Assembly (NCBI GenBank): GCA_013287475.1 | Contig: JABDDT010000022.1 | Coordinates: 1 to 38,278 of the forward strand | DNA from: Bacteroidota bacterium | GTDB lineage: Bacteria > Bacteroidota > Bacteroidia > Chitinophagales > Chitinophagaceae | Reading direction: 5' to 3' | DNA length: 38,278 nucleotides | Shown here: one piece after another, positions 5,709 through 36,753 of the stretch | How positions within the stretch are numbered: the first letter of the stretch is position 1 | How the letters are laid out: every line of letters starts with the position of its first letter | Position numbers and translations under genes: made by a program | Notes under the pieces: model-generated | What the model saw: only the letters and a program-made list of their open reading frames with translations | Database searches by the model: none | Told to the model about the DNA's origin: nothing

Positions 5709-5743
5709 GGCGTAACGCCAAACGCTTAAAGCTAAACGCCATA
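5709..5743. repeat. heptamer word array 1 (NGCNNAA, 5 units)
   Basis: Five consecutive 7-nt units: GGCGTAA, CGCCAAA, CGCTTAA, AGCTAAA, CGCCATA. Each keeps the core NGCNNAA with variable middle bases. It begins 6 bp from the tRNA-Ser 5' end and precedes the tiny ORF pair at 5878-6143. Confidence 0.85.
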
Positions 5744-5877
5744 AAGGGAGGCAAAAATAAAGATTAAATGAACAGGATCCGCATTTTTAGGGGTCTAATC
5801 AAAAACCCTTAGTTCTAAACAATAAAAAGTCCATGAGGGAGTTAAATATTCAGTCCATTACCCATTAAAAACCCCGT

Positions 5878-6039
5878 ATGAAAACTTTTCTGACGGCTGT
5901 ATTTGAAAACACACGCCCACTTTCTAAAAAGCTTTTGTTTTCCTGTTTTATGGCCGGTTATCTCCTGGCAACCCTGCTCTTCGCTTTATTCAGGCCCCAG
6001 GTGCATCATTTTATTAATTCAATTTTTCAGGGATTATGA
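5878..6039 (+). CDS. putative 53-residue membrane miniprotein
   Basis: ATG at 5878 to TGA at 6039 encodes a 53-residue peptide: a short polar N-terminus with basic residues (RPLSKK), one hydrophobic segment (about residues 20-38, LLFSCFMAGYLLATLLFALF), then a polar tail. It overlaps the next tiny ORF through ATGA, which suggests translational coupling. Both sit between heptamer arrays 1 and 2. I do not recognise the family. It could be a real single-pass miniprotein; the coupled arrangement and absence of other genes in this 500-bp space support it, but there is no homology evidence. Confidence 0.5.
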   Translation: MKTFLTAVFENTRPLSKKLLFSCFMAGYLLATLLFALFRPQVHHFINSIFQGL

Positions 6040-6143
6040 ATTTACTCCAGGCCATCATTAATATCCTTCAAAGAGACAGGAAAAGGTCCATTGCTCTTTT
6101 TGAGCTTAAAAGGAAATTTTATCATTCAAGGCTTAAGGCGTAA
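6036..6143 (+). CDS. putative 35-residue basic peptide, coupled to the preceding ORF
   Basis: ATG at 6036 overlaps the TGA of the preceding ORF and ends at TAA 6143. The product is short and strongly basic (RDRKRS, LKRKFYHSRLKA), predicted largely helical. Its last three codons and its stop lie inside heptamer array 2, so the array supplies the C-terminus (LKA, stop). No family is recognised. The weakest point is the small size; the strongest is the ATGA coupling. Confidence 0.4.
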   Translation: MNLLQAIINILQRDRKRSIALFELKRKFYHSRLKA

Positions 6144-6220
6144 CGCACAACGCGTAACGCTTAATGCCGAACGCGTAACGCCAAACGCGTAACGCCAAAC
6201 GCGTATCGCGTAACGCCGAA
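6130..6220. repeat. heptamer word array 2 (NGCNNAA, 13 units)
   Basis: Thirteen consecutive 7-nt units in register. Most are CGCGTAA, CGCCAAA, CGCTTAA or CGCCGAA, with a few first-base variants (GGCTTAA, GGCGTAA, TGCCGAA) and one CGCGTAT. It has the same orientation as array 1. The second unit contains the stop codon of the tiny ORF ending at 6143. Confidence 0.9.
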
Positions 6221-6238
6221 CGCAACTCAGGTGAAATA

Positions 6239-6266
6239 AAAAAGCCCACTGCTCAGTGTGCTTTTT
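6239..6266. terminator. hairpin terminator after dnaA
   Basis: AAAAAGC (6239-6245) pairs with GCTTTTT (6260-6266), and inside it CACT pairs with AGTG around a GCTC loop. A- and T-rich flanks on both sides allow termination in either direction. It lies 32 bp beyond the dnaA stop. Confidence 0.65.
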
Positions 6267-6296
6267 ACTTTAAAATTTTTACTTTTTACTTTAATG
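6262..6296. repeat. TTTTTAC heptamer array
   Basis: Five in-register 7-nt units directly before the dnaA stop: TTTTTAC, TTTAAAA, TTTTTAC, TTTTTAC, TTTAATG. It keeps the 7-nt step of the neighbouring array but with a different, AT-rich word. It overlaps the right arm of the terminator. Confidence 0.55.
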
Positions 6297-6297
6297 A

Positions 6298-7731
6298 TCA
6301 CATCGCCGCCAGCTGCACTTTCTGCTGCAACTCGGTTACGTTTTCGCGGAACAGGCTATCGGTATCCATCAGGTCTTTCACGGTCTGGCAGGAATGTATG
6401 ACCGTGGTATGATCCCTTCCTCCAAAATGTTCACCTATCGTTTTTAATGAATTCTTAGTAAATGCCTTTGCCAGGTACATAGTGATCTGACGCGCCTGCA
6501 CAATTTCCCGTTTTCTCGTCTTCTGTAAAAGCTTATCATAAGGCAGATCAAAGTATTCGCAAACCATTCGCTGGATGGTTTCTATTGTTATTTCCTTACT
6601 GCTCGTTTTGACAAAGTTTCTCAGCACTTTCTTGGATAATTCCAGATCTATTTCTCTCTTGTTAAGCGAAGACTGTGCCAGAAGGGATATCAATGCACCT
6701 TCCAGTTCGCGGACATTGCTGTTGATATTGTAAGCCAGGTATTTTACCACTTCTTTAGGCATTTCAAGACCATCATTCTTCATCTTGCGTTCCAGGATTT
6801 CAATCCGGGTCTCATAGTCAGGAACCTGAAGGTCGGCACTAAGCCCCCACCGGAAACGACTCAATAGTCTTTCCTGTACCCCTTCCAGATCCTTTGGTGG
6901 TTTATCAGAAGTCAGTATCAGTTGTTTGCCGCTCTGATGAAGATGGTTGAAAATGGCAAAAAAAGCGTCCTGGGATTTTTCAGCCCTGTTAAAGAATTGT
7001 ACATCGTCGATGATCAGTACATCTACCATCTGGTAAAAATGGATGAAATCATTGATCGCATTATTCCGGCTGTGATCTATAAACTGGTTGATGAATTTTT
7101 CAGAACTGACGTATAATACCACTTTATTATGAAGAGTCCGTCGTACCTCATTCCCGATAGCCTGCGCAAGATGGGTTTTCCCAAGGCCGACACCTCCATA
7201 TATAACCAGGGGATTGAAGGAATTGGCGCCTGGTTTTTCCGCTACAGTCTTTCCTGCCCTGCGGGCTACCCGGTTGCAGTCACCCTCAATAAAGACGTCA
7301 AAAGTATAGACAGGATTCAGCTGGGAATCAATCTGCATTTTCTTCAGGCCGGGTATCACGAAAGGATTTTTAACCGGATTGTTAATGATCAGGGGGAAAT
7401 CCATTTCATTATTGGAAATCGTCTTGTAAGTATGTGCAGGTACATCCATTGTCAAAGGTTTATTTTGCTGGTTGCCACTGTCAACCATGATCCGGTACTC
7501 AAGCCTTGCGTCTTTGCCAAGTATCCTACGCAAAGTCTTTGCCAATAAATTCACATAATGCTCTTCCAGATACTCATAAAAAAACTGACTCGGAACCTGG
7601 ATGACCAAAACATTCACTTTCAATTCCACCGGACGAATGGGTTCAAACCAGGTTTTATAATGCTGCCACTCAACAATATCTTTTATGATCTCTAGACAAT
7701 TGGACCAGACTTTTTCAAAGGTTTTCGGCAT
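6298..7731 (-). CDS. dnaA: chromosomal replication initiator DnaA
   Basis: 477 residues, full length. Domain I (about residues 1-80) has the helicase-loading W-x-x-H-Y-x-T-W pattern (WQHYKTWFEPI). Domain III has Walker A GGVGLGKTH and Walker B VLIIDDVQFF, plus the arginine-finger region RLLSRFRWGL. Domain IV carries the DnaA-box-binding signature GEHFGGRDHTTVIHSCQTV. DnaA-ATP opens the replication origin. The gene stands alone, without dnaN or gyrB alongside, as is common in Bacteroidota. Its 656-bp upstream region lacks a clear DnaA-box cluster, so this is not shown to be oriC. Downstream are a T-rich heptamer array and a hairpin terminator. Confidence 0.97.
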   Translation of the reverse strand: MPKTFEKVWSNCLEIIKDIVEWQHYKTWFEPIRPVELKVNVLVIQVPSQFFYEYLEEHYVNLLAKTLRRILGKDARLEYRIMVDSGNQQNKPLTMDVPAHTYKTISNNEMDFPLIINNPVKNPFVIPGLKKMQIDSQLNPVYTFDVFIEGDCNRVARRAGKTVAEKPGANSFNPLVIYGGVGLGKTHLAQAIGNEVRRTLHNKVVLYVSSEKFINQFIDHSRNNAINDFIHFYQMVDVLIIDDVQFFNRAEKSQDAFFAIFNHLHQSGKQLILTSDKPPKDLEGVQERLLSRFRWGLSADLQVPDYETRIEILERKMKNDGLEMPKEVVKYLAYNINSNVRELEGALISLLAQSSLNKREIDLELSKKVLRNFVKTSSKEITIETIQRMVCEYFDLPYDKLLQKTRKREIVQARQITMYLAKAFTKNSLKTIGEHFGGRDHTTVIHSCQTVKDLMDTDSLFRENVTELQQKVQLAAM

Positions 7732-8387
7732 TACAAAAAAAGCAGTTTAAGGCTGGTTAAAAATCTGTTTTAAAATGTGATTTTCTTAGGATTTTAAAAG
7801 TTAAATTTTTGCGGGGGGACGAATATCAAGATTAATTTCTGAATAAAAAATTTTTTATTAATTGTTACGTTCGGAGAGCCTTCAGAAGCATAAGGGACAT
7901 AAAAAATAATTTCTTCAGTAATTAAAAATTAGCTAATTGGCAGTAGAAAAGATGATGTCTTTTTAGCCCGTACTTCGTCCATCTATACTTCGTGGCGGAC
8001 ATCGGTAGTCTGCCTTACCCCGGTTAAGGACATTAAGAGATGGATCAACAAGACACAATAGGAACGCAGGTTTAGAAAGAAACAAAATGGAGAGGCGGAT
8101 AATTGAAAATGTTGATTTAAAATATTTCTCCATATGATGTTATTGTGACGCGATTGAAGATACAGATATTTTGACAGCATTTTGTTTTAAGCAAAGATTT
8201 TTTAAAAAAAAATTTAGCCCCTTCAGGAGCCCATAATTTCACCTTTGAGTAAAGCGCGGTGAACCAGTTAGTTCAGAGAAACTACCTGATCAAAAATTAC
8301 ACTGAAAATTTTTTTTGAAATTTAGTTATCATAGTTTTACGAACTAGAAAAATTTTTAGTACTTTCTGCAAGTCCCCCTTATCCAGG
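7732..8387. other. 656-bp gene-free region between dnaA and the COG2509 gene
   Basis: The region is AT-rich, with several long A/T runs (for example around 7843-7862 and 8200-8214). No RNA gene, terminator or convincing ORF was found. A 65-codon minus-strand frame (7983-8180) has no recognisable features. No pair of good TTATNCACA boxes was found; the nearest is TTATCCAGG at about 8369. TACTTCGT occurs twice within 20 bp near 7970-7993. It must hold the divergent promoters of dnaA and the FAD enzyme, but I could not place them. Confidence 0.6.
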
Positions 8388-10905: not shown

Positions 10906-10908
10906 ACA

Positions 10909-12240
10909 ATGAATAAGATAGGTCTGATCATACGCAGGGAATATATTACCCGTATAAGGAACAAAACTTTTCTAATCTCTACTTTTCTTTTACCTATCAT
11001 AATTGTTCTGGGTATTGCAGGTACTGTATACCTGGCCATCAAGGGCAAAACCAATCACCGGATCGCAGTTTCGGATCAGAACGGTTATTTCAAAGACTAT
11101 CTGAAAAGTGATTCTACCATTTTCTTTGATTTTTCTCCTGGCATTGACACCTTAAACTATGCAGATAAAAATTGCAGCGCGGTATTGATCATTCCTGTAC
11201 TCAACGAAGGACAAAAAACTATCTACCGGCTTAAATACAAAAAGCAACTGGGACTTGCCAATATCGACGATCTCGAAAAGCGAATTAATTCTGCGATTAC
11301 GGATCATATGATTTTTACTAAAACAAATATTACGAGGAGCCGTCTCGATTCCATCAGAGCTGCATCTGATCTGGGAGAACTAAAAAGTTTTTCTGATGAA
11401 GGTAAAAAATCACAGGCTTCCAGTCAGGGACTTTCATATGCAATCGGATATACATGTGGATTCCTGATCTACCTGCTAACATTTATTTATGGTGCAATGG
11501 TGATGCGTGGTGTAAGTGAAGAAAAAACCAGCAGGGTGGCTGAAGTCATCGTAAGTTCTGTAAAACCTTTCCCATTAATGCTGGGGAAAATAATCGGAAT
11601 CGGCGCTGTAGGACTAACGCAATTTCTACTCTGGATCGTATTGGGTATCGTTCTGTTTACAGTGGCTCAGGCTTTTCTTCCTCACGAATTATTGCAGGAA
11701 GTTAATAATATTCAACAAGCCAATGCAATGGGGAATGCTCAGATGGCACAGACCAGTGAAGCCGCCCGTCAAATCTTTGAATTCAAACAATCCGTACAAA
11801 ATACAAACTGGCTTCTTATCATCGGATGCTATATATTTTATTTTACCGGTGGCTATTTATTTTATGCTTCTTTATTCGCTGCTGTGGGTTCTGTAGTTAA
11901 TGAAGATCCACAGGAAGCACAGTCACTTTTGTTGCCCATCACAATGCCCATTATTTTTTCATTTATTATAATGTCCATTGCCATCCAGGATCCAGGCGGA
12001 TCGCTTGCCGTATGGGCCAGCATGATTCCCTTTAGCTCGCCCATTGTAATGATGGCCAGGATTGCTTATGGTGTTCCCACTACTGTACCTTACTGGCAGC
12101 TCTTTTTGAGTATGGCTCTTCTTGCAGGGGGATTTTTATTCACAACATGGATTGCCGGAAGAATTTACAGAACGGGGATTCTCATGTACGGTAAGAAACC
12201 TACATGGAAAACAATGTGGAAGTGGGCGTTTAAAGCTTAA
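10909..12240 (+). CDS. ABC-2 type permease (NatB-like)
   Basis: 443 residues. A first membrane helix near residues 20-42 (TFLISTFLLPIIIVLGIAG) is followed by a large extracytoplasmic domain of about 130 residues, then five or six helices from about residue 178. The segment MVMRGVSEEKTSRVAEVIVSS is the conserved coupling region of NatB/COG1668 permeases. It pairs with the ATPase just upstream (gap 3 bp). The final codons and the TAA (12238-12240) run into heptamer array 3, whose first unit AGCTTAA contains the stop, so the last residues (FKA) may be array-derived. Confidence 0.9.
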   Translation: MNKIGLIIRREYITRIRNKTFLISTFLLPIIIVLGIAGTVYLAIKGKTNHRIAVSDQNGYFKDYLKSDSTIFFDFSPGIDTLNYADKNCSAVLIIPVLNEGQKTIYRLKYKKQLGLANIDDLEKRINSAITDHMIFTKTNITRSRLDSIRAASDLGELKSFSDEGKKSQASSQGLSYAIGYTCGFLIYLLTFIYGAMVMRGVSEEKTSRVAEVIVSSVKPFPLMLGKIIGIGAVGLTQFLLWIVLGIVLFTVAQAFLPHELLQEVNNIQQANAMGNAQMAQTSEAARQIFEFKQSVQNTNWLLIIGCYIFYFTGGYLFYASLFAAVGSVVNEDPQEAQSLLLPITMPIIFSFIIMSIAIQDPGGSLAVWASMIPFSSPIVMMARIAYGVPTTVPYWQLFLSMALLAGGFLFTTWIAGRIYRTGILMYGKKPTWKTMWKWAFKA

Positions 12241-12303
12241 CGCTTAACGCCTAATGCTTAACGCTTAAAGCTTAACGCGGAACGCTTAACGCGGACCGTG
12301 TAA
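12234..12303. repeat. heptamer word array 3 (NGCNNAA, 10 units)
   Basis: Ten in-register 7-nt units from AGCTTAA (12234) to CGTGTAA (12303), mainly CGCTTAA with CGCGGAA, CGCCTAA and TGCTTAA variants. The first unit includes the TAA of the ABC permease. Array 4, on the other side of the four-helix-bundle gene, is in the opposite orientation. Confidence 0.92.
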
Positions 12304-12396
12304 CATACAGAATCTCCAAGTGTTTTTCTCCTGCAAAAAAGGTAATGAGATCATGTATTTAAAAGTTCTATGCGCTTTATTTGTTTAAAGTTTATC

Positions 12397-12762
12397 ATGA
12401 GGAACTATAAAAAATTTAGCGTCTGGTTAATATCACATGAACTGGTCCAGAAAATCTATAAAGAAATTGTACCGGGGTTTCCCGAATCAGAGAAATATGG
12501 GCTATCGAGTCAAATCAGGCGGGCCGCATATTCAATACCGCTTAATATTGCTGAAGGATGTGGAAGAACTTCAGAAAAAGAATTTGCTCACTTTCTTGAA
12601 ATAACCCTTGGGTCAGTACATGAATTGGAGTACTGCATCTTACTGATCAGAGATTTAGCATTCATCGAAGAAGAACAATACTTGATTTTTTACGAAAAAA
12701 TTAATATGATTAAAGCAATGATCATTAACTTAATTAAAAAAATCCGCTCAGAAACGCCTTAA
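12397..12762 (+). CDS. four-helix-bundle protein (S23 / 23S rRNA intervening-sequence type)
   Basis: 121 residues from ATG 12397. An upstream in-frame ATG (12370) would add nine residues, but MRNYKKFSVWLISHELV matches the usual N-terminus of the family. The central SSQIRRAAYSIPLNIAEGCGR followed by EFAHFLEITLGSVHELE is the hallmark of the small four-helix-bundle proteins first described in 23S rRNA intervening sequences and related to Avd of diversity-generating retroelements. Function outside rRNA is not established; binding of structured nucleic acid is plausible. No 23S rRNA or reverse transcriptase is present. The gene lies between two inverted heptamer arrays, and its TAA is part of array 4. 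Confidence 0.85.
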   Translation: MRNYKKFSVWLISHELVQKIYKEIVPGFPESEKYGLSSQIRRAAYSIPLNIAEGCGRTSEKEFAHFLEITLGSVHELEYCILLIRDLAFIEEEQYLIFYEKINMIKAMIINLIKKIRSETP

Positions 12763-12870
12763 GCGTTAAGCGTTCCGCGTTCCGCGTTAAGCGTTAAGCG
12801 TTCCGCGTTAAGCATTAAGCGTTCCGCGTTAAGCGTTCCGCGTTAAGCGTTAAGCGTTCCGCGTTAAGCG
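12759..12870. repeat. heptamer word array 4 (TTNNGCG, 16 units)
   Basis: Sixteen gapless 7-nt units, all TTAAGCG or TTCCGCG apart from one TTAAGCA (unit 8). It fills exactly the space between two convergent genes: the TAA of the four-helix-bundle gene (12760-12762) is inside unit 1, and the complement of the lipoprotein's TAA (12871-12873) begins right after unit 16. It is the reverse-complement orientation of array 3. Confidence 0.95.
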
Positions 12871-13656
12871 TTACTGAGTAAGTCTAACCGGCGGTGTGCT
12901 GACCGATGCACTTGAAAAATAATAAACCCTTTTACGGGAAAGTGGAAGAATGGCTTCATTTTGTGTTCCGCGAGCGATGGTAATTCCTATAAATGCATTA
13001 CAGGGAAATGAAGAAAGATCATTTTTCGTCAGAAAATAGCTTCCGTTATCAGGAGTGGTCAGGCTTATGGTTGAAATATTTGAAGGCAGTGTTGAATCTG
13101 CTTTTTGGCTGAGCAGACGGAAATAATATAACTGGATCAAAACATTTCCCCAGGTATTTTGATTATCAGGCGTCCATTGTAACTGGATTCCTTTACTAAG
13201 AGAAAGATTATTCGGATAAGCAGCAATTGTTCCCGAAAGTTGCTTTGGAACATATACAGAACTGGTTACGGTGTCTGCATCATCCATGCCCCGGATAGTT
13301 ACTAAAACCTTTGATCCAAAAAGATCAGAACCCTTATTGAATTCACCCGAAGTAAAATTATAATTATAGCTGTATGTAGAATCCCCATCGGGTTGGATGA
13401 GCTGATTATTGACCAGTAAAGTCCGCACAACAGTCACCTGGTGGTTATTACTGTCTATGAAAGCAGCACTTACCCCAATGTGTAATTCTTCGCTGTCAGA
13501 ATTACTGAGTACCTGATTGGCATTGATTAAAACATAGTTATAAACAGTGCTGTTCTGCGTACCGAACCAGGTCCAGTTATTGGCCGGATTTGACGCTTCT
13601 TTATGGCAGGAAACCATGCACCCTGCACTTATAAGAAGCAGCAAAGGTTTGTTCAT
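12871..13656 (-). CDS. putative lipoprotein, unknown function
   Basis: 261 residues with an N-terminal lipoprotein-type signal: a short hydrophobic run (LLLLISAG) and a likely lipobox cysteine at residue 17 (MVSC, followed by HKE); another cysteine sits at residue 13. The rest is rich in S, T, N and aromatic residues and looks all-beta, as in surface-exposed lipoproteins of Bacteroidota. I do not recognise the family. The stop codon directly abuts heptamer array 4 (TAA followed by CGC). The gene is divergent from the nitronate-monooxygenase-like gene. Confidence 0.65.
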   Translation of the reverse strand: MNKPLLLLISAGCMVSCHKEASNPANNWTWFGTQNSTVYNYVLINANQVLSNSDSEELHIGVSAAFIDSNNHQVTVVRTLLVNNQLIQPDGDSTYSYNYNFTSGEFNKGSDLFGSKVLVTIRGMDDADTVTSSVYVPKQLSGTIAAYPNNLSLSKGIQLQWTPDNQNTWGNVLIQLYYFRLLSQKADSTLPSNISTISLTTPDNGSYFLTKNDLSSFPCNAFIGITIARGTQNEAILPLSRKRVYYFSSASVSTPPVRLTQ

Positions 13657-13743
13657 CCAGTGGGCTTGAGTTGTTACATAAATATAGTTTTTTATAAAGA
13701 ATTAAAAAAAACTAACTACCCACCGGCCTTACCTTTAAAAACT

Positions 13744-14706
13744 ATGGAATTCTCCAATTTAATTACCCGTTTATTTGGGATCCGTTATCCTATCATACAG
13801 GCAGGGATGGTCTGGAACAGTGGCTGGCGTCTGGCTTCAGCAGTGAGCAATGCAGGAGCCCTCGGGATGATCGGCAGCGGTAGTATGAATCCCGATATTT
13901 TAAGAGAACATATTCGAAAATGTAAAGTGGCAACTTCTAACCCTTTTGGGGTAAATATTCCCCTGATGTATCCGGATGTTCAAAAACATATTGAAATCGT
14001 ATTGGAAGAAAAAGTTCCCATAGTATTTACTTCAGCCGGTAACCCTTCCAGCTGGACAAGCGTCTTAAAGGAAAAGGGTATCAAAGTAGTACATGTGGTG
14101 AGCAGCAGCCGGTTTGCCCGCAAGGTTGAAGAAGCGGGTTGTGATGCAGTGGTAGCGGAAGGGTTTGAGGCTGGCGGTCATAATGGGCGAGAAGAAACCA
14201 CTTCGATGGTTCTGATCCCCTCGGTTGTGGATGCAGTAAAAATCCCGGTGATTGCTGCCGGCGGAATAGGAACCGGCCGGCAAATGTTTGCAGCGATGGC
14301 CCTTGGAGCTTGTGGAGTACAAATCGGTACCAGATTTGTGCTAAGCGAAGAGTCATCATCCCATCCGGATTTTAAGAATTATGTACTGAAGGCAGGAGAA
14401 GGTGATACCATACTTACTATGAAATCACTGATGCCTGTGAGAATGCTCAAAAACTCTTTTTTCAAACAGGTTGCAATTGCCGAGCAAGCTGGCGCTTCGG
14501 CAGAAAATATTAAATCCCTATTGGGAAAAGGAAGAGCGAAAAAAGGCATGTTTGAAGGGGACCTGGAAGAAGGTGAACTGGAAGTCGGACAAGTAAGTTC
14601 CATGATAAAAGATATCCTCCCTGCGGGGGGAATTATAGAAAATTTATGGATTGAATTTAGGAAAACCTGGGCTGAACCATTATCTTGTAAATTGCAAATC
14701 ACATGA
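13744..14706 (+). CDS. nitronate monooxygenase / FMN-dependent 2-nitropropane dioxygenase-like
   Basis: 320 residues from ATG 13744; an open extension further upstream has no homologous look and was not used. TIM-barrel motifs of COG2070 are visible: PIIQAGMVWNSGWRLASAVS near the N-terminus, NPFGVNIPL, VVAEGFEAGGHNG (the histidine is the proposed catalytic base), and the FMN phosphate-binding IPVIAAGGIGTGRQM with ALGACGVQIGTRF. Members oxidise alkyl nitronates or act as enoyl-ACP reductases (FabK), so the exact reaction is uncertain. Its TGA overlaps the ATG of the next gene (ATGA), showing translational coupling. Confidence 0.87.
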   Translation: MEFSNLITRLFGIRYPIIQAGMVWNSGWRLASAVSNAGALGMIGSGSMNPDILREHIRKCKVATSNPFGVNIPLMYPDVQKHIEIVLEEKVPIVFTSAGNPSSWTSVLKEKGIKVVHVVSSSRFARKVEEAGCDAVVAEGFEAGGHNGREETTSMVLIPSVVDAVKIPVIAAGGIGTGRQMFAAMALGACGVQIGTRFVLSEESSSHPDFKNYVLKAGEGDTILTMKSLMPVRMLKNSFFKQVAIAEQAGASAENIKSLLGKGRAKKGMFEGDLEEGELEVGQVSSMIKDILPAGGIIENLWIEFRKTWAEPLSCKLQIT

Positions 14707-15113
14707 AAGTTTCTTTTTACCTTACGCTATTCCTTTTCTCCTGTCTGGTTTCATGCGGACTATATGCCAGTGATGGAAATCCCGAACCCCTGATCAAAGG
14801 ACAGGTGTTGGATGCCGTTACCAAAAAACCTGTTTCTGGTGTGGTTGTTTCAGCCATGATTCCCGGCGATCAGACTTATAAGGAAGCTGTTACGGATGTT
14901 GATGGTTACTACTTTTTCAAACAACTTCCTTCATGTCACGTAAACCTTCGGTTTGAGAAAAAGGGTTATCAGAAATACAAATACCAGGAACTGATCGAAA
15001 TACAGGAAAAGAAAACTGTAAAAGTAAATGTCGAAGTTTCCCCTGATAATGATTCTGAACTCCAGCCTGATGATTCGGAATACCCCTTACTTAGAATTTT
15101 GGGGATGAAGTAA
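14703..15113 (+). CDS. small lipoprotein with carboxypeptidase-regulatory-like (CarboxypepD_reg) domain
   Basis: 136 residues. The N-terminus has a hydrophobic signal ending in LVSC (cysteine at residue 18), a good lipobox. The mature part from about residue 30 reads IKGQVLDAVTKKPVSGVVVS then DVDGYYFFKQLP, the transthyretin-like CarboxypepD_reg fold that also opens many TonB-dependent receptors. Here it is a stand-alone domain with an acidic tail (PDNDSELQPDDSEY). It is coupled by ATGA to the flavoenzyme upstream, an unexpected pairing of a cytosolic enzyme with an exported protein. Downstream, array 5 separates it from a convergent gene. Confidence 0.75.
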   Translation: MKVSFYLTLFLFSCLVSCGLYASDGNPEPLIKGQVLDAVTKKPVSGVVVSAMIPGDQTYKEAVTDVDGYYFFKQLPSCHVNLRFEKKGYQKYKYQELIEIQEKKTVKVNVEVSPDNDSELQPDDSEYPLLRILGMK

Positions 15114-15118
15114 TTTTA

Positions 15119-15195
15119 CGCTTAAAGCTAAACGCCGAACGCTTAACGCTAAACGTCGAACGCTTAACGCTAAACGCCGAACGCTTAAAGCTATT
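15119..15195. repeat. heptamer word array 5 (NGCNNAA, 11 units, 21-bp superperiod)
   Basis: Eleven in-register 7-nt units. The variable bases cycle TT, TA, CG so that three units form a 21-bp higher-order repeat (CGCTTAA, CGCTAAA, CGCCGAA), seen three times with small changes, before a final CGCTTAA and a degenerate AGCTATT. It lies between two convergent genes. Confidence 0.9.
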
Positions 15196-15239: not shown

Positions 15240-15271
15240 CGACTCCCATACTCCCATATTCCCATACTTTC
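15240..15271. repeat. 8-nt word array (ACTCCCAT type)
   Basis: ACTCCCAT, ACTCCCAT, ATTCCCAT, then ACTTTC, ending next to the stop of the nucleotidyltransferase. The reverse complement (GAAAGTATGGGANTATGGG) reappears at 31810-31826. Confidence 0.65.
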
Positions 15272-18837: not shown

Positions 18838-18841
18838 AGAA

Positions 18842-18890
18842 CGCTGAACGCTGAACGCTTAACGCTGAACGCTGAACGCTGAACGCTAAA
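18842..18890. repeat. heptamer word array 6 (CGCTGAA, 7 units)
   Basis: Seven units, five of them CGCTGAA, plus CGCTTAA and CGCTAAA. It starts 4 bp after the glyA TGA and ends 10 bp before the DUF4293 start. It is the only array in the window dominated by a TGA-containing word, and it follows the only array-linked gene with a TGA stop. Confidence 0.9.
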
Positions 18891-19326: not shown

Positions 19327-19337
19327 GAAACCATTAA

Positions 19338-19358
19338 CGCGGAACGCGGAACGCGGAG
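19338..19358. repeat. heptamer word array 7a (CGCGGAA, 3 units)
   Basis: CGCGGAA, CGCGGAA, CGCGGAG in register, preceded by a degenerate CCATTAA. It is in inverted orientation to array 7b, 44 bp away, across a convergent gene junction. Confidence 0.8.
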
Positions 19359-19402
19359 GTAGTTTGTTTAATTTATAAAACTTAAAATAAATACTTATTG
19401 CG

Positions 19403-19437
19403 TTACGCGTTCCGCGTTAAGCGTTAAGCGTTAAAGG
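19403..19437. repeat. heptamer word array 7b (TTNNGCG, 5 units)
   Basis: TTACGCG, TTCCGCG, TTAAGCG, TTAAGCG, TTAAAGG. The first three bases of the last unit (19431-19433) are the complement of the uvrA TAA stop codon. With 7a it can form a hairpin. Confidence 0.85.
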
Positions 19438-22265
19438 TACTTTCCCGTAAAACTTTCCTTTACTTTCTTCAATCCCTGCGGTACGCCTTCATAGACCAGA
19501 TTTCCACCCGCATCGCCTGCTCCGGGCCCCAGATCAATAACCCAGTCTGCTGAATTAATCACATCTGTATTATGCTCTACCACGAGCACAGAGTGGCCTT
19601 GTTCAATCAATGCATTAAAAGAATTGAGCAACTTTTTTATATCATGAAAATGCAGACCCGTTGTGGGTTCATCAAAAATAAAAAGGATATGTCCGAGACT
19701 CCTGCCTTTACCGAGGAAAGAAGCCAGTTTAACGCGTTGCGCCTCACCACCGGATAAGGTGTCGGATGATTGACCAAGTTTAATATATCCGAGTCCCACA
19801 CTGCTTAAAGGTTTTAATTTTTGAAGAATTTCTTTTTCATCCTTAAAAAATTCCAGGGCATCATCCACACTCATTTCCAAAATGTCGTGGATATTTTTAT
19901 TCCGGTATTGTACATCCAGCACTTCTTCTTTAAAACGCTTTCCTCCACAAACTTCGCAGGTAAGATGCACATCTGCGAGGAATTGCATTTCCACTACCTG
20001 TTCACCTTCTCCCTTGCAGGTATCACAACGGCCGCCATCTACATTAAATGAAAAATGTTTGGGTAGAAAACCGCGCAATTTGCTCAATGGTTGTTTCGAA
20101 AATAAATCACGGATCTCATCGTATGCTTTTACATATGTTACGGGATTACTGCGGGACGACTTCCCGATTGGATTCTGATCCACCAATTCAATCTGACTTA
20201 TCAAATCCACTTCACCTGTAATGGACAGATGCATCCCTACCTTGTCGGCGTATTCCCCTTTCATTTTTTGTAATGCAGGATACAGGATTTGCTTTACCAG
20301 TGTCGTTTTCCCACTTCCGCTCACCCCGCTTACAACACAGAGAACTTTTAAAGGAAAAGCAACTGTGATATCCCGTAGATTATGCTGCCTGGCACCATTG
20401 ACTGTAATAAAATGCTTCGGTTTCCTTAATTGATCGGGCGGTTCAATTTTTAAATCACCGCGCAGATATTTTCCGGTAAGACTGTTTTCATTTTCAATAA
20501 TGGCCTCATAATTTCCTGCAGCCACAACTTCTCCTCCAAGGTGACTCGCCAGCGGTCCCATATCAATAATATAATCTGCTTCGCGCATCATCATTTCATC
20601 GTGTTCCACTACAACCACGGTATTTCCCAGGTCGCGCAGTTCTTTTAAAACACCTATCAGCCGGCGGGTATCCCTTGCATGAAGTCCGATAGAAGGTTCA
20701 TCTAATATATAAAGTGAATTGGTGAGATTGCTTCCCAGTGAACGCGTCAGTTGAATACGCTGGCTCTCTCCACCACTGAGTGAATTGGCCAGCCTGTTAA
20801 GGGTCAAATAGCCAAGACCCACATCCAGTAAGGTTTTCAGCCGGTTATTAATTTCAATCAGTATACGCTTTGCCACTTTCTGTTGAAAATCTGATAAAAC
20901 AAGATTTTTGAACCATTCATTGAGCCTGCCAACTGGCAATTCGCAAAGCTCACCAATATGCTGTCCCCCAATCTTAACATACAGTGCTTCAGGCCGAAGA
21001 CGGTAACCTTTACAATCCGGGCAAATGGTGCGACCACGATACCTTGATAATAAAACTCGATATTGAACCTTATATAAATTTTTTTCAACTTCTTTAAAGA
21101 AATCATCGATCCCGTTCACCTCTTTATTTCCTTCCCAGAGCAATTGATTTTGTGCTTTGGTGAGATCAATGATAGGTTTGTGAATCGGAAAGTCGTATTT
21201 TTTGGATGTTTTTATAAAGTGATCTCTCCAGGCACTTAGCTTCTCACCTTTCCAGGGGGCTACAGCACCTTCGAACAGGCTAAGTCTTTTGTCGGGAATT
21301 ACAAGATCTGAGTCAATACCAAGTACCTGACCGAAACCTTCACATGTTGTACAGGCACCATAGGGATTATTGAATGAAAAAAGATTGGGCACTGGTTCTT
21401 CAAATCTCATCCTGTCCATTTCAAATCGATTAGTGAATGACAACTTTTCTTCACCATTGATTTCGAGTTGCATCTGTCCTTCCCCTTCATAAAAAGCGGT
21501 GCCAATAGAATCAGCCAGTCGATGCTGATCGTCTTCATCAAAATCTTTAACTAAAATCCTGTCTATAAGAAGAAAAGAATTGTCTTTAGGCAGCTTTGGT
21601 TCAGCCTTTTTCGTTTTACCGTTAGTTGCAGATGCTGTTAAGAGATCTTCTATCCGCACAGTTTCCCGGTTAACATAAAGACGGCTAAATCCCTTCTGAA
21701 GAAGGATATTCAGCTCTTCTGTAGTATTCCGGTTGGGATGTTGTTTAAATGGAACCAGGATAAGAATCTTATCACCGGTGGTCCTTTCCTGCATGGCTTT
21801 TATTACATCCTGGACATCATGCTTCTTTACCTCTCTCCCTGAAACGGGAGAATATGTGATACCCACCCGTGCATAAAGTAACCGGAGGTAATCATACAAT
21901 TCGGTCATACTACCAACAGTTGACCGGGGAGTCCTGGTGGTCACTTTCTGTTCGATAGCGATAGCAGGACAAAGTCCTTTAATGTAGTCTACGTCTGGTT
22001 TATCCATCCTTGCCATGAACTGTCTTGCATATGCACTCAAACTTTCTGCATAACGACGCTGACCTTCCGCAAATAATGTATCAATCGTCAACGAAGATTT
22101 TCCAGAACCAGATACGCCGGTGACTACAATAAATTTATTGCGTGGAATGTTGACCGATATATTCTTCAGATTATGGACCCTGGCACCTTTTATTTGGATG
22201 GAATCCAGGGGTGAATGGAGGGCAGTTTTAGAAGAAGTCTTTTTGTCTTTGATCGTTGATGACAT
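19431..22265 (-). CDS. uvrA: excinuclease ABC subunit A
   Basis: 944 residues from ATG 22265; an upstream in-frame ATG would add 18 unrelated residues. UvrA is the damage-recognition ATPase of nucleotide excision repair. Two ABC modules are present: Walker A GVSGSGKSS near the N-terminus and GVSGSGKTT in the second half; signatures LSGGESQRIQLTRSLG and LSGGEAQRVKLASFLG; Walker B ILDEPSIGLH and IFDEPTTGLH. Zinc-finger cysteines occur in CTTCEGFG, CPDCKGYR, and the pair CDTCKGEG / CEVCGGKR. Full length. The stop codon lies in heptamer array 7b. The gene is divergent from the ECF sigma factor. Confidence 0.97.
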   Translation of the reverse strand: MSSTIKDKKTSSKTALHSPLDSIQIKGARVHNLKNISVNIPRNKFIVVTGVSGSGKSSLTIDTLFAEGQRRYAESLSAYARQFMARMDKPDVDYIKGLCPAIAIEQKVTTRTPRSTVGSMTELYDYLRLLYARVGITYSPVSGREVKKHDVQDVIKAMQERTTGDKILILVPFKQHPNRNTTEELNILLQKGFSRLYVNRETVRIEDLLTASATNGKTKKAEPKLPKDNSFLLIDRILVKDFDEDDQHRLADSIGTAFYEGEGQMQLEINGEEKLSFTNRFEMDRMRFEEPVPNLFSFNNPYGACTTCEGFGQVLGIDSDLVIPDKRLSLFEGAVAPWKGEKLSAWRDHFIKTSKKYDFPIHKPIIDLTKAQNQLLWEGNKEVNGIDDFFKEVEKNLYKVQYRVLLSRYRGRTICPDCKGYRLRPEALYVKIGGQHIGELCELPVGRLNEWFKNLVLSDFQQKVAKRILIEINNRLKTLLDVGLGYLTLNRLANSLSGGESQRIQLTRSLGSNLTNSLYILDEPSIGLHARDTRRLIGVLKELRDLGNTVVVVEHDEMMMREADYIIDMGPLASHLGGEVVAAGNYEAIIENENSLTGKYLRGDLKIEPPDQLRKPKHFITVNGARQHNLRDITVAFPLKVLCVVSGVSGSGKTTLVKQILYPALQKMKGEYADKVGMHLSITGEVDLISQIELVDQNPIGKSSRSNPVTYVKAYDEIRDLFSKQPLSKLRGFLPKHFSFNVDGGRCDTCKGEGEQVVEMQFLADVHLTCEVCGGKRFKEEVLDVQYRNKNIHDILEMSVDDALEFFKDEKEILQKLKPLSSVGLGYIKLGQSSDTLSGGEAQRVKLASFLGKGRSLGHILFIFDEPTTGLHFHDIKKLLNSFNALIEQGHSVLVVEHNTDVINSADWVIDLGPGAGDAGGNLVYEGVPQGLKKVKESFTGKYL

Positions 22266-23229: not shown

Positions 23230-23282
23230 AACGATATACGAACGATATACGAACGATATACGAACGATATACGAACGATATA
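23230..23282. repeat. 11-bp tandem repeat AACGATATACG, about 4.8 copies
   Basis: Exact copies of an 11-bp unit containing ATAT, ending close to the dsbD stop (23296). Eleven bp is close to one helical turn, so identical faces repeat along the DNA. It sits at a convergent junction after the sigma-gene terminator. Confidence 0.9.
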
Positions 23283-25968: not shown

Positions 25969-25974
25969 ATTCTT

Positions 25975-25995
25975 TAAGCCTAAAGCTTAAAGCCT
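25975..25995. repeat. heptamer array B1 (AAAGCNN, 3 units)
   Basis: TAAGCCT, AAAGCTT, AAAGCCT in register, just upstream of the purQ promoter element and 7 bp from the TATGNNN array. It belongs to the AAAGCNN flavour also seen at 35.4-35.6 kb. Confidence 0.7.
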
Positions 25996-26002
25996 TTTGA
26001 TG

Positions 26003-26072
26003 TATGGGTTATGGGATATGAACTATGAGATATGGGTTATGGGTTATGAACCATGAGATATGGGTTATGAGC
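26003..26072. repeat. heptamer array C1 (TATGNNN, 10 units)
   Basis: Ten gapless 7-nt units: TATG followed by three variable bases (GGT four times, AAC twice, AGA twice, GGA, AGC), with a single CATG variant. It has an inverted partner at 26133-26174, so the pair can form a hairpin with a loop of about 60-70 nt. Confidence 0.9.
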
Positions 26073-26132
26073 TATTGTCAACGATTTTTAAATACGATGA
26101 CTAAACCTATAAATTATAATTTATGACTTGTA

Positions 26133-26174
26133 ACCTACATCTCATAGTTCATATCTCATAGTTCATAACCCATA
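26133..26174. repeat. heptamer array C2 (NNNCATA, inverted partner of C1)
   Basis: TCTCATA, GTTCATA, TCTCATA, GTTCATA, ACCCATA in register after a degenerate ACCTACA. These are the reverse complements of the TATGNNN words of C1. It lies 12 bp beyond the DUF6427 gene's stop. Confidence 0.85.
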
Positions 26175-26186
26175 ACCAAATTACGT

Positions 26187-28677: not shown

Positions 28678-28760
28678 AATAAAACACTTATAGGGATTGG
28701 TTTGAAAGACAAGGTACTCAAAACTCCCTTTAGAATCTGTTAATTTCATCCTATTCCCTA

Positions 28761-28768
28761 TATCTTTG
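28761..28768 (+). promoter_or_regulatory. -7 promoter element for kup
   Basis: TATCTTTG matches the TAnnTTTG consensus. The predicted start gives a leader of about 75 nt before the GTG at 28852. The -33 element is weak. Confidence 0.55.
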
Positions 28769-28851
28769 TGCCGATTGCTTTTTCATGAATGCCATTGTTT
28801 GCCATATAGACAATCCCTGTCCGCTTTGACACCAACTTAACATGCACTGTA

Positions 28852-30813: not shown

Positions 30814-30893
30814 TACTACAATATTTTTAAATTCTTAACGAAACAGGAAAGGCTGATTTTCACAATGTGGAAAACGTGAAATTGTGGAGATCT

Positions 30894-30946
30894 AGAATGT
30901 AAGAATGAAATTAAAAATTAAATTATAAATTTCATTCCTCCATTCT
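30894..30946. repeat. imperfect inverted repeat of GAATG/CATTC words
   Basis: Two 19-nt arms (30894-30912 and 30928-30946) match at 17 of 19 positions as reverse complements around a 15-nt AT loop. Within the arms GAATG or CATTC recurs every 8 nt. It lies at the kup/FkbM convergent junction. Confidence 0.6.
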
Positions 30947-30951
30947 AACAT

Positions 30952-30972
30952 AATAATTGCTCTGCAATTATT
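30952..30972. terminator. bidirectional hairpin between kup and the FkbM gene
   Basis: AATAATTGC and GCAATTATT form a perfect 9-bp stem around a TCT loop. The position 20 bp from the FkbM stop suits termination, but the stem is AT-rich and no long T-tract follows. Confidence 0.5.
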
Positions 30973-30992
30973 TACAATCCCACATTTCTACA

Positions 30993-31769: not shown

Positions 31770-31785
31770 CAAAAGAAATTATTTG

Positions 31786-31793
31786 CAAAGGTA
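31786..31793 (-). promoter_or_regulatory. -7 promoter element for the FkbM gene
   Basis: TACCTTTG on the minus strand, identical to the element before purQ and a full TAnnTTTG match. The leader would be about 10 nt. Confidence 0.6.
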
Positions 31794-31809
31794 TGTTATA
31801 CGCTTTAGG

Positions 31810-31877
31810 AAAGTATGGGAGTATGGCACTATAAAAGTGTGAGAGTGTGAGAGTGTGAGAGTGTGAGGGTGTGAGGG
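31810..31877. repeat. 8-nt word arrays (AGTATGGG and AGTGTGAG)
   Basis: First GAAAGTATGGG with AGTATGGC (the word found inverted at 15240-15271), then five in-register 8-nt units of the AGTGTGAG type, the last GGTGTGAG. It lies between the FtsX permease stop (31891) and the FkbM promoter region. Confidence 0.75.
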
Positions 31878-31890
31878 CAATTCAGGTCTC

Positions 31891-34329: not shown

Positions 34330-34457
34330 GATGAATATTTTTTGGAATTTCTTTTTAAGTGGCTAAAGGAATGCCAGTAATCCAAAATGTTCTTTTTCAA
34401 TAATTTAAACGAGTATCCTTATTTGTGATGTCCGGTTTTGATACGCTCACTGTTCGT

Positions 34458-35372
34458 TTAAATTTCCTCCATCGAAACCTTTTCTTTACCTACTCTCAGC
34501 TTATATTCCACGCCACATTTCAGGGCAAAATTATCTTTTACATGACCGACCGGAAATCCGTAACAAACCGGAAAGTCATATTCTGCAAGTACATCGCGGA
34601 TTATTTCATAAGCATCCTGTCCGAAAGGCCTTTCTGTATCTTTCATATCTGTAAAACTTCCAATCACGAGCGCTGCAGGTTTATTGAATTTTCCGGCTCT
34701 CTTTAACTGATGAAGCATCCGGTCTACATTGTATAAATATTCCCCTATATCTTCAATAAAAAGGATGAGGTTCTTGGTTTTAAAATCCGATGGGCCTCCT
34801 ACGGTATGCGCAAGTAAAGTAAGATTGCCACCCATAAGCACTGCTTCCACATCTCCTCTCCGGTTAAAAGGATGCGGTTCACAGAAAAATTGCAACTTTT
34901 TACCTGTCAGGAGATCCCGAATGGAATGTATAAATGGATCATCAGGTCCCGTATCAAGAAAAGCACCGGCCATTGCTGTGTGCCCGGTAGCAATTTCATA
35001 ATTTGAATATATATGTGCGTGCAATAAAGTGATATCACTATAGCCCAGGATCCATTTAGGTGATTTACGGAATCTCTTAAAACTGATCTTTTCAATAATT
35101 CTGCTCAATCCATATCCTCCCCTCCCAAATAAAATCGCCGCTACTTCATCATCATCCAGCATTTCCTGCAGATCCTCCAGTCTTTCCGCATCAGTACCTG
35201 AAAAATAATTGGAAGAAGTGCCACCGACTGTTTTTCCGATCTTAACCCGGAAGCCCCATGATGTCAAAGTATTTACACAGGGTACAATTCTTTCGGCAGA
35301 CATAAAACCGGCGGGGCAAACAATGCCGATGGTGTCGCCACTTTTTAAGTAAGGAGGGGTTGTATTTGACAT
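34458..35372 (-). CDS. LD-carboxypeptidase (peptidase S66), cytosolic paralogue
   Basis: 304 residues, no signal peptide. It opens SGDTIGIVCPAGFM, a conserved S66 start. GYSDIT (about residue 110) holds the nucleophilic serine; the catalytic glutamate is in the FIEDIGEYLYNVDRML segment and the histidine in PVGHV. It cleaves the L,D-bond that releases D-alanine from the tetrapeptide of murein, in cell-wall recycling. It is closely similar to the gene upstream on the same strand, from which an inverted pair of AAAGCNN arrays separates it. Confidence 0.9.
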   Translation of the reverse strand: MSNTTPPYLKSGDTIGIVCPAGFMSAERIVPCVNTLTSWGFRVKIGKTVGGTSSNYFSGTDAERLEDLQEMLDDDEVAAILFGRGGYGLSRIIEKISFKRFRKSPKWILGYSDITLLHAHIYSNYEIATGHTAMAGAFLDTGPDDPFIHSIRDLLTGKKLQFFCEPHPFNRRGDVEAVLMGGNLTLLAHTVGGPSDFKTKNLILFIEDIGEYLYNVDRMLHQLKRAGKFNKPAALVIGSFTDMKDTERPFGQDAYEIIRDVLAEYDFPVCYGFPVGHVKDNFALKCGVEYKLRVGKEKVSMEEI

Positions 35373-35385
35373 GGTTGACCTTTTT

Positions 35386-35434
35386 AAAGCCTAAAGCTTA
35401 AAGCCCAAAGCCCAAAGCCTAAAGCCGAAAGCCT
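35386..35434. repeat. heptamer array B2 (AAAGCNN, 7 units)
   Basis: AAAGCCT, AAAGCTT, AAAGCCC twice, AAAGCCT, AAAGCCG, AAAGCCT in register, between the LD-carboxypeptidase start and a 100-bp spacer. It is the inverted partner of B3. Confidence 0.92.
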
Positions 35435-35541
35435 AAAACTAGATTGGAAATAATAAAAATTGAATGTGATTCAAATCTGATTTTTATAATTCAAACTTAT
35501 AATATTCATTATTCAGGATTCTAAACAACCACTAAAGTTTT

Positions 35542-35618
35542 AGGCTTTCGGCTTTAGGCTTTAGGCTTTAAGCTTTAAGCTTTGGGCTTTGGGCTTTAAG
35601 CTTTGGGCTTTAGGCTTA
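35542..35618. repeat. heptamer array B3 (NNGCTTT, 11 units)
   Basis: Eleven in-register units (AGGCTTT, CGGCTTT, AAGCTTT and GGGCTTT types). The outer 27 nt (35536-35562) match the reverse complement of the end of B2 without mismatch, and a further 21-nt block matches after a three-unit insertion. The last unit AGGCTTA includes the stop codon complement (35616-35618) of the second LD-carboxypeptidase. Confidence 0.93.
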
Positions 35619-36650
35619 AGTGATTTCTTTAAAACTAACGCTAACCGAATCAATATTTAATTCATGCTTCACACCACATTTCAATGCATAATTTGTTTTT
35701 ACGTGGCCAACGGGGAAATTAAAACAAACCGGATATTTATATTCAGCTACCTGTTCCAATACGATATTGTAAACACTTTTTCCAAACTCATCTCCGGGGT
35801 CATCGGGTTTAACACGGAATGCCCCAATCAACAACCCTTTTAGATTTTCAAGCTTGCCCGTGCGCTTCAGATTATAAAACATACGGTCAATACTATATAA
35901 ATATTCCCCGGTATCTTCCAGGAACAGGATCATCCCTTCGGTACGCAGATCTGATGCAGAACCGGCAAGGGTCTCGATCGTTTTAAGATTTCCACCAGCC
36001 AGTATTCCCTGTCCAAATCCGGATCTGTTACCCTCATCATATACGATTGGATATTCAATCCTCTTACCTGTTAATGCAGCTTCAATGGATAAAATACTTT
36101 CCCATTGACCTTTTTCAATCTGTTCAGAAACCTCCGGAAAACTATTGCACATTTTTGAATGAATGGAAGCTATATGAAACTGATGATTAAGTTGTGCATG
36201 AATAACCGTAATATCGCTGAATCCTATAATCCATTTTGGCCTTTCTATGAATTTCTTCCAATCCAGCTGATCAATAATCCTGACACATCCGTAACCCCCC
36301 CTTGCACACATGATAGCCTGGATAGAAGGATCATCCAGCATTTGCTGCAGGTCTGCCAACCTTTCTGCATCTGTTCCCCCAAAAATGAAATCGCGGGCTC
36401 CTACGGTCCTGCCTATGCGCAGATTAAATCCCCAGCTTTTTATCGTCTGCACTGCCGGCAGGATTTCTTCCGGTGTCATAAATCCTGCGGGACAAGTAAT
36501 TCCAACTGTATCTCCTGCTTTCAGATAAGACGGAATACGCCAGGGTATTCCATCCAAAATATTGTTATCCTCAATATGCGAAGACTTAAAATTCGCCGAT
36601 GCCAGCAAAGGGCCACCCAACAGGGATCCCAGGAAAGACTTTCTCTTCAT
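35616..36650 (-). CDS. LD-carboxypeptidase (peptidase S66), exported paralogue
   Basis: 344 residues from ATG 36650 (a TTG codon before it is in frame). An N-terminal extension of about 40 residues, MKRKSFLGSLLGGPLLASA, looks like an export signal; it resembles Tat-type leaders but lacks the twin arginine. The catalytic part has AGDTVGITCPAGFM, GFSDIT (serine), LEDTGEYLYSIDRM (glutamate region) and PVGHV (histidine), like its neighbour. The signal suggests action outside the cytoplasm, unlike the downstream paralogue. The TAA stop is contained in heptamer array B3. Confidence 0.9.
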   Translation of the reverse strand: MKRKSFLGSLLGGPLLASANFKSSHIEDNNILDGIPWRIPSYLKAGDTVGITCPAGFMTPEEILPAVQTIKSWGFNLRIGRTVGARDFIFGGTDAERLADLQQMLDDPSIQAIMCARGGYGCVRIIDQLDWKKFIERPKWIIGFSDITVIHAQLNHQFHIASIHSKMCNSFPEVSEQIEKGQWESILSIEAALTGKRIEYPIVYDEGNRSGFGQGILAGGNLKTIETLAGSASDLRTEGMILFLEDTGEYLYSIDRMFYNLKRTGKLENLKGLLIGAFRVKPDDPGDEFGKSVYNIVLEQVAEYKYPVCFNFPVGHVKTNYALKCGVKHELNIDSVSVSFKEIT

Positions 36651-36658
36651 CAAATAAA

Positions 36659-36687
36659 GTTAACTGTTAACAGTAGACAGTTAACAG
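36659..36687. repeat. heptamer array (GTNNACA, 4 units)
   Basis: GTTAACT, GTTAACA, GTAGACA, GTTAACA in register, with internal palindromes (GTTAAC). It lies 8 bp upstream of the exported LD-carboxypeptidase ATG. Confidence 0.6.
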
Positions 36688-36711
36688 CATTTAATTCAAA
36701 GATTCGCTTAA

Positions 36712-36753
36712 AAATGCGTTAGGCGTTAGGCGTTAAGCGTTAGGCGTTACGCC
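36712..36753. repeat. heptamer word array 8 (TTNNGCG, 5-6 units)
   Basis: A degenerate AAATGCG, then TTAGGCG, TTAGGCG, TTAAGCG, TTAGGCG and TTACGCC in register. It ends 10 bp before the metG -7 element, so it overlaps the expected -33 region of that promoter. Confidence 0.85.

Follow-up and report, generated by a model that had tools for sequence, protein, structure and literature searches.

Heptamer repeats and inserts in ribosomal RNA (rRNA) genes are each already known. The two subjects meet in the stretch of DNA described here, the whole 38,278 nucleotides of contig JABDDT010000022.1 (hereafter the window), where tandem arrays of 7- and 8-nt words lie between genes and the largest inverted pair of arrays encloses a gene of the 23S rRNA intervening-sequence protein (IVP) family. 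The source is a soil bacterium, represented by a metagenome-assembled genome (MAG) of the Chitinophagaceae, as judged by the relatives of its glyA gene (Chitinophagaceae MAGs, Puia and Flavitalea). A related kind of repeat is the short tandemly repeated repetitive (STRR) sequence, which consists of tandem heptamers in the intergenic DNA of heterocystous cyanobacteria; to our knowledge, its description includes neither inverted pairing nor IVP. The arrays in the window resemble STRR in their tandem heptanucleotide units and intergenic position, and differ from it in their host, a member of the Chitinophagaceae and not a heterocystous cyanobacterium. Another example is found in the REPtrons, where repetitive extragenic palindromic (REP) sequences, bacterial interspersed mosaic elements (BIME) or REP doublets forming hairpins (REPIN) occur with RAYT; REPs are short palindromes, and RAYT is an HUH-type tyrosine transposase. 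REPtrons likewise have a gene between inverted repeats and many dispersed gene-less inverted pairs, but the gene enclosed here belongs to PF05635 and does not encode a tyrosine (HUH) RAYT transposase. We know of no nuclease activity for IVP, which is a four-helix bundle.

The closest system in anatomy is the 23S rRNA intervening sequence (IVS), a selfish element with the S23p gene in a stem loop, which is found in only some isolates and rrn copies and whose mobility has been proposed and is unproven (PMC4990558, in part). Heptamers have also been described as TAACTGA repeats, directly repeated 7-nt units found mostly between genes, in cyanobacteria and in some Bacteroidetes with further heptamers, including Gramella forsetii, A. 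sublithincola and Elizabethkingia anophelis; in Maribeggiatoa they stand mostly before start codons, and 169 sets are direct while a single repeat is indirect (MacGregor, 2015, PMC4679880, in part). A sequence-only reading of the window knew of no named element of this kind in Bacteroidota, where such arrays had been published (PMC4679880, in part). As described in parts of that paper, the TAACTGA repeats are one fixed word, mostly ahead of starts in Maribeggiatoa, unlike the present arrays, which use many words and lie mostly at the upstream stop; those parts of PMC4679880 contain no link to IVP. In Xanthomonas and Nostoc, GGGNATC heptamers overlap stop codons or lie within 50 bp of them on the coding strand and have been attributed to G-quadruplexes (Rehm, 2015, PMC4692102, in part). 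These repeats are like the present arrays in being a heptamer with one free base and in their stop-codon position and strand, and an IVP homologue is known from X. campestris (PDB 2gsc); they are unlike them in that the AANGCNN words are not G-rich and in that inverted pairing is absent from this part of the GGGNATC description. The PF05635 family also has Avd, a protein of the diversity-generating retroelements, among its relatives (PMC10053308, in part). The IVP of the window matched NCBIfam Avd with E 7e-4, under the family cut-off, and, unlike in those retroelements, no reverse transcriptase was found among 30 window open reading frames (ORFs) scanned against NCBIfam. No link of heptamer arrays to IVP, and no account of arrays as inverted arms, was found among the papers listed by searches of the open-licence PMC literature.

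In the window, the gene between the longest arms was identified as IVP by PF05635 (E 1.9e-35), TIGR02436 (E 2.1e-34) and PDB 2gsc (E 2.1e-18), and the complete arm-IVP-arm element folds into one stem (-200.3 kcal/mol, z -6.2, 20 shuffles). The arrays are likely, though far from certainly, arms belonging to selfish hairpin elements, which would spread at the DNA level and whose arms IVP would recognise, with pairs enclosing either IVP or a short spacer. Because the anatomy matches the 23S rRNA IVS, the arrays may be taken as the arms of IVS-like elements together with their gene-less or decayed copies. As in the IVS, an S23p/IVP-family gene lies in the loop and terminal inverted repeats are able to form the stem; unlike the IVS, the window element is flanked by two protein genes and is not placed in a 23S rRNA gene, its arms are 7-/8-nt tandem arrays, and gene-less pairs far outnumber gene-bearing ones. 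The arm-IVP-arm unit would then be an autonomous element, like the IVS but sited between protein genes, and short-loop pairs and lone arrays would be derivatives of it that are non-autonomous or decayed. Likeness of the two arms would be maintained by template switching, or by conversion across the palindrome. The window IVP is homologous to the five-chain PDB entries 2gsc and 2rld, and the 7-/8-nt step could correspond to the contact spacing of subunits in a ring-shaped IVP oligomer along the arm, which would leave the words free to change while the step stays fixed.

The association of IVP genes with inverted arms was assessed by the complementarity of 250 bp on each side of the gene against 40 shuffles per locus, with z>5 taken as a pass, at 34 of the 66 IVP matches in the window's genus (including all 7 of the source genome, G000) and at 30 high-scoring loci from the phylum, where IVP ('four helix bundle protein') genes are present in 153 of 198 genomes searched. 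The test was passed by 28/34 genus and 17/30 phylum loci, that is 45/64 in Bacteroidota; among individual loci, L115, L261 and L265 lay above z 5 and L250 below it. Control ORFs of 95-180 aa from array-rich stretches passed in 6 of 150 cases, three of which were themselves IVP, leaving 3/147 non-IVP genes, counts that come from a version of the test before locus placement was corrected. The difference between IVP and control flanks is large (Fisher 5e-27) with loci taken as independent, several of the phylum loci being orthologous to each other. The best flank period was 7 in 55 flanks, 8 in 18 and 9 in one, with none scoring in 54. Other ORFs inside or beside arms included tgt, a DUF2804-like ORF, an RRM protein, a hexapeptide transferase, a helix-turn-helix-like ORF, an HxlR regulator, a thioesterase and a NikA-like ORF, and no family other than IVP recurred among those checked.

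The same layout extends beyond the phylum. Plasmid IVPs were found in 26 records, of which 16 belong to Nostocales as judged by genus name, and of 18 plasmid loci tested (17 cyanobacterial, one from Azospirillum), 10 had z>5, their arm heptamers including GTAGGGA, GGGAACA, GGTGACA and AAAAGCT; nine of the 17 cyanobacterial genes lie between inverted heptamer or octamer arms, and the gene of the proteobacterium Azospirillum is likewise enclosed by inverted arms. The parallel with cyanobacterial heptamers drawn in the sequence-only reading was therefore apt. A second IVP gene was found between inverted octamer arrays (z 15.5) in a 50-kb Nostoc plasmid stretch, which had been picked irrespective of that gene, the plasmid's first IVP being known beforehand, and 23 other small genes of the two stretches in the Nostoc test reached z at most 5.0. 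This recurrence of the arm-IVP-arm layout in other bacterial groups likely marks a selfish mobile element. Phage carriage was not seen, with 0 IVP matches among 50,697 phage records. Some cyanobacterial plasmid IVPs (L303, L305, L317 and L306) sit in CRISPR-Cas operons, between cas6 and cas4 (twice) and between cas10 and cmr3, or between two ribonucleotide reductase subunit genes.

Most paired arrays enclose no gene. In three array-rich genomes of the genus (G000, G015 and G005), neighbouring arrays separated by no more than 250 bp comprised 76 same-word inverted, 5 same-word direct and 35 different-word cases, with inverted-to-direct ratios of 39:2, 20:1 and 17:2, respectively, compared with about 1:1 for random same-word array pairs. 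When weak, uncalled partners are counted, an inverted complement was found within 250 bp of 186 of 341 arrays, versus 60 of about 1200 comparisons using the flanks of other arrays. No inverted neighbours were seen at gaps of 251-450 bp, three at 451-700 bp (two enclosing an IVP gene and one a DUF2804-like ORF), and above 700 bp inverted and direct neighbours numbered 14 and 10. In the stretches examined, 76 gene-less pairs thus stand against two or three gene-bearing ones. Of the arrays listed in the sequence-only reading, those at 19336/19400, 35385/35539 and 12230/12756 form inverted pairs, the last enclosing the gene, and the regions 19330-19440 and 35380-35622 fold with z -5.5 and z -12.1. 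Median arm lengths ranged from 4.2 to 7.3 units with a broad spread, five units being expected for a pentamer. In G015, graded octamers (GATGTG.. to GTTGA..) make up a perfect 51-bp inverted repeat whose loop measures 128 bp (L171, 1953-2003/2132-2182), and at L184 (19790-19965) and L185 (16078-16284) the octamer core shifts from outer GTTGA to inner GTCGA in equal order in both arms, which look as though they had been copied from one another.

The arrays of the window, collected in Table 1, belong to a genome-wide population. G000 comprises 3.16 Mb in 137 contigs and is 74% complete; the three-unit pattern AACGCNNAACGCNNAACGC has 163 + 145 matches in it, 308 in all, and the reversed pattern none. 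Matches were found in 8 of 58 genomes, G000 included, with 392 in G015, 188 in G005, 108 in G016 and 1-10 each in G006, G019, G020 and G025; all eight belong to the window's genus, and none of 25 genomes outside the genus has any. In 838 kb of G000 (the window and the first 40 kb of contigs 1-20), 120 period-7 and 48 period-8 arrays were counted, and dinucleotide-shuffled intergenic DNA gave 0.0 period-7 arrays, which places the arrays far above chance. Other periods were rare (0, 1, 0, 0, 3, 0, 1 and 0 for periods 5, 6, 9, 10, 11, 12, 13 and 15, with at most 0.2 in shuffles), periods 14 and 16 being treated as harmonics. G015 has 39 period-7 and 22 period-8 arrays in 389 kb and G005 has 61 and 23 in 400 kb; G008 has 3 and 0 in 114 kb, G002 has 3 and 0 in 169 kb, and G003 has neither period in 200 kb. 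Just 16 of 168 arrays lie mostly within ORFs of at least 90 aa, in agreement with their supposed intergenic position.

The sequence-only reading had treated the arrays as one AAMGCNN family, which does not hold: the words include AACGCNN, AAAGCNN, AACCGYC, AATTGNN and ATAACCC as well as the octamers ACTCCCAT, AGTATAAG and AGTGTGAG, and G005 and G015 have some words in common and others private to each. TAACTGA is missing from the 45 commonest words of G000 arrays. Every array it listed was found in the window, starting within a few bases of the position given, but the list was too narrow, the window also having an inverted TATGRGN pair and octamer arrays; what it had missed were the inverted pairing, the polarity to stop codons and the IVP gene in the window's largest pair. 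Its statement that the core is kept and two positions vary is right in general, while some inner units deviate (AATGC, AACGT). That the arrays are not plain microsatellites also stands, as the spacer positions vary with the core kept and neighbouring same-word arrays are overwhelmingly inverted.

Table 1. Repeat arrays in the window and the gene enclosed by the largest pair.
Feature	Position	Strand	Remarks
AANGCNN array	5714..5745 (about)	+	No called partner; beside tRNA-Ser (5611-5702)
AACGCNN array	6128..6223	+	No called partner
Left arm, IVP element	12230..12304	+	About 10 units of (T)TAANGCNN; stop of upstream gene inside (12238-12240)
IVP gene	12370..12762	+	130 aa; PF05635 23S_rRNA_IVP / TIGR02436 four helix bundle protein
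Right arm, IVP element	12756..12873	-	Inverted, 16.4 units; contains stops of IVP gene (12762) and convergent gene (12871)
AACGCNN array	15118..15193	+	Directly past stop of 14703-15113
Octamer array ACTCCCAT	15242..15268	.	
GAACGCT array	18839..18890	+	Between glyA and DUF4293 gene
Left arm, gene-less inverted pair	19336..19357	+	AACGCGG x3
Right arm, partner of 19336..19357	19400..19434	-	x5; flush with uvrA stop codon (19431)
Short AAAGCNN array	25972..25993	+	
Left arm, inverted pair, word TATGRGN	26003..26075	+	Arms matched by eye
Right arm, TATGRGN pair	26139..26177	-	By eye
Octamer array AGTGTGAG	31836..31877	.	
Left arm, gene-less inverted pair	35385..35437	+	AAAGCCN x7.6
Right arm, partner of 35385..35437	35539..35620	-	x11; flush with stop of gene 35616-36653
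GCGTTAN array	36716..36752	-	Overlaps stop end of called ORF 36740-37183

Comparison with related genomes bears on gain, loss and movement. The window IVP is missing between the same flanking genes in G003 (gap of ~150 bp), G008 (~20 bp) and G016 (~105 bp), and in G016 this site carries a different array word as well as a short GCGTT array, which lies at the same stop. The window IVP and its left arm align over 575 bp with a copy in G005 whose neighbours within 1.5 kb are unrelated. At a second site of G000 (L110), the flanking genes match those in G005 (L261) at 87 and 80% and the IVPs match at 63%, in opposite orientation; inverted arms could permit flipping of the segment at these two loci. 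At a third site, IVP lies within 100 bp of the same gene, by coordinates, only in G000 and G005, and no IVP match was found within 5 kb in 27 other genomes with a near-full-length copy of that gene, where contig ends or incompleteness may hide some. Among gene-less loops, an 18-mer beside AAAGCC arms occurs five times in G000, where it directly adjoins TTTAGGC in two of the five copies, once in G005 and in none of 31 other genus genomes. The 47 gene-less loops of at least 25 nt gave top similarities of 20, 19, 16 and 15 against a shuffled maximum of 14 in 1081 comparisons, and most are unrelated.

The strongest rival explanation is passive mutation, in which slippage favouring 7-8 nt and template-switch correction of palindromes create the arrays, IVP merely sits there and nothing is mobile. 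In the relative G008, the glyA/DUF4293 gap has a single AACGCTAAA at the site matching the array 18839..18890, and this one-unit seed, the mostly unrelated loops and the lack of wobble bias described below are all points in its favour. Heptamers have also been reported as the commonest long-repeat category in most genomes surveyed by Mrazek et al., polymerase slippage being the suggested cause (PMC4679880, in part). Against this, words are common to hundreds of places per genome and yet the close relative G003 has 0 arrays in 218 kb, IVP genes are concentrated between arms, a position rare for ordinary small genes in those stretches, and the same IVP element is found at unrelated sites. Passive mutation is considered unlikely, although it is the foremost competitor of the selfish-element reading.

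Evidence on how the arms evolve comes from one IVP locus that is common to seven genomes with the same neighbours, which we take to be MoxR-like and DUF58-like. In the six genomes with both flanks, scores of left against right arm within a genome were 27, 23, 46, 18, 19 and 10, compared with 7-13 for left arms against other genomes' right arms where the word differs and 7-23 among three genomes sharing a GTTGRCN-like word; the own-arm score of G020, 10, is no higher than scores between genomes. The word therefore differs while the palindrome persists in five of six genomes. The mismatches between arms help to separate the DNA from the RNA level, since selection on RNA is expected to tolerate G-U. 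In 33 of the 76 gene-less pairs, those between same-direction genes, 39 G-U and 32 A-C mismatches were counted; 37 further gene-less pairs, which cannot be oriented, gave 23 and 22, and 34 IVP elements, chosen for clear arms from 82 IVP loci and oriented by gene direction, gave 35 and 42. This absence of a G-U excess points to DNA.

It also speaks against the second rival, a function in RNA, in which inverted arrays would be 3'-untranslated-region hairpins that terminate transcripts or shield them, a role suggested for REP elements. Placement is what recommends this idea. With gene calls from a simple ORF script, which make the counts approximate, and intergenic regions of at least 60 bp in the three rich genomes, arrays are present in 56/132 convergent (42%), 101/409 tandem and 19/181 divergent (10%) regions, and of the 101 blocks in tandem regions, 67 are no more than 15 nt from the stop upstream and 24 no more than 15 nt from the start downstream; the folds are also strong. 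However, array scarcity before starts is also expected from promoter damage, no partner was found for 155 of the 341 arrays, and past the array at 6128..6223 a separate, intrinsic-terminator-like stem and T run was seen by eye at ~6239-6265, in the gap that separates the AACGC array from the dnaA stop codon. An Rfam scan of the window at the gathering threshold returned tRNA only, with no known RNA family at the arrays. An RNA function is on balance quite improbable.

Least probable is that the arrays are protein- or ribosome-binding sites affecting translation, as proposed for the TAACTGA repeats: the fixed 5-nt core with its 2-nt spacer, the polarity of the 131 AANGC arrays (stop-abutting ones run along the gene in 59 cases and against it in 3, with a stop codon at or within the array start in 30 of the 59) and the TAA in the unit, which supplies stops in all frames, would suit it, but words vary among loci and genomes, several lack a stop codon, and TAACTGA stands before starts in Maribeggiatoa (PMC4679880, in part) while the present arrays are mostly after stops. 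Stop codons in all three frames were also considered as a function in themselves and rejected, as TTAACGC fits but many words (ACTCCCAT, AGTATGGG, GCCTCCT) contain no stop.

At the level of whole genomes, IVP was found in 8/8 genomes with AACGC triplets versus 5/25 others (Fisher 9e-5). In the stretches examined, IVP-positive genomes have 330 arrays in 2.06 Mb, 313 of them from the three rich genomes; the remaining IVP-positive genomes have 17 arrays in 422 kb, and IVP-negative genomes have one in 417 kb, half of that DNA being from G003. A glyA tree shows 5 changes in IVP and 6 in AACGC; G003, in which neither IVP nor arrays were found, is nested in the rich clade, and G002, with one IVP and few arrays, those seen having its own IVP arm word, is nested in the poor clade.

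Several results weigh against the selfish-element reading. The link between IVP and arrays is confounded with phylogeny and with guanine-plus-cytosine content, which tends to be higher in IVP-negative genomes; many of the genomes compared are incomplete, and the glyA tree provides only four independent pairs (in the median two agree, none oppose and two are undecided), so that significance is out of reach. The flank test (z>5) was failed by 6/34 genus, 13/30 phylum and 8/18 plasmid loci, and three ordinary genes, those for the HxlR regulator, the thioesterase and the RRM protein, have complementary flanks. The 155 arrays in which no partner was found have been mentioned above, G005 also has 7 period-6 arrays, and the few alike loops support whole-pair copying for few pairs. 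The one-unit seed at glyA in G008 fits growth in place rather than insertion, and the IVP locus common to seven genomes indicates that some copies are old and vertically inherited. No transposition was seen and, with no search aimed at it, no target-site duplication was found; mobility and the binding of arms by IVP are what we infer. As for the HxlR regulator gene of G015 (L168, 4371-4754; z 29), a local hairpin of a GAGCGGAGA-like word was seen on each side of it.

A broader form of the selfish-element reading, in which the arrays represent a new class of mobile element (IVP between palindromic arms of interchangeable 7- or 8-nt words, accompanied by swarms of gene-less copies) in Bacteroidota, Cyanobacteria and at least one proteobacterium, with STRR, TAACTGA and GGGNATC as its footprints and a genome's word swapped in concert at many loci, is put forward tentatively and is somewhat more doubtful than not. 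If true, heptamer repeats of several phyla, which have been explained separately by translation, quadruplexes and slippage, would gain a common cause, and the element may explain a repeat class reported from several bacterial groups. IVS/S23p would no longer be an oddity of rRNA genes but a widespread family of intergenic elements, 'four helix bundle protein' genes would have a role, and the arms would be a natural instance of both sides of a palindrome changing sequence together.

Two further observations concern single sites. At the 3' end of glyA, where G000 carries its AACGC array, G015 has a palindrome with ~40-bp arms directly 3' of the gene (L126), and hairpins of different sequence were seen by eye at this position in G022, G020 and G025, so that the glyA 3' end seems a favoured palindrome site. 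In the window at 23230-23282, 3' of an extracytoplasmic function (ECF) sigma factor gene, lies a perfect 11-mer tandem repeat (AACGATATACG x4.8), which is unlike the 7-/8-nt arrays.

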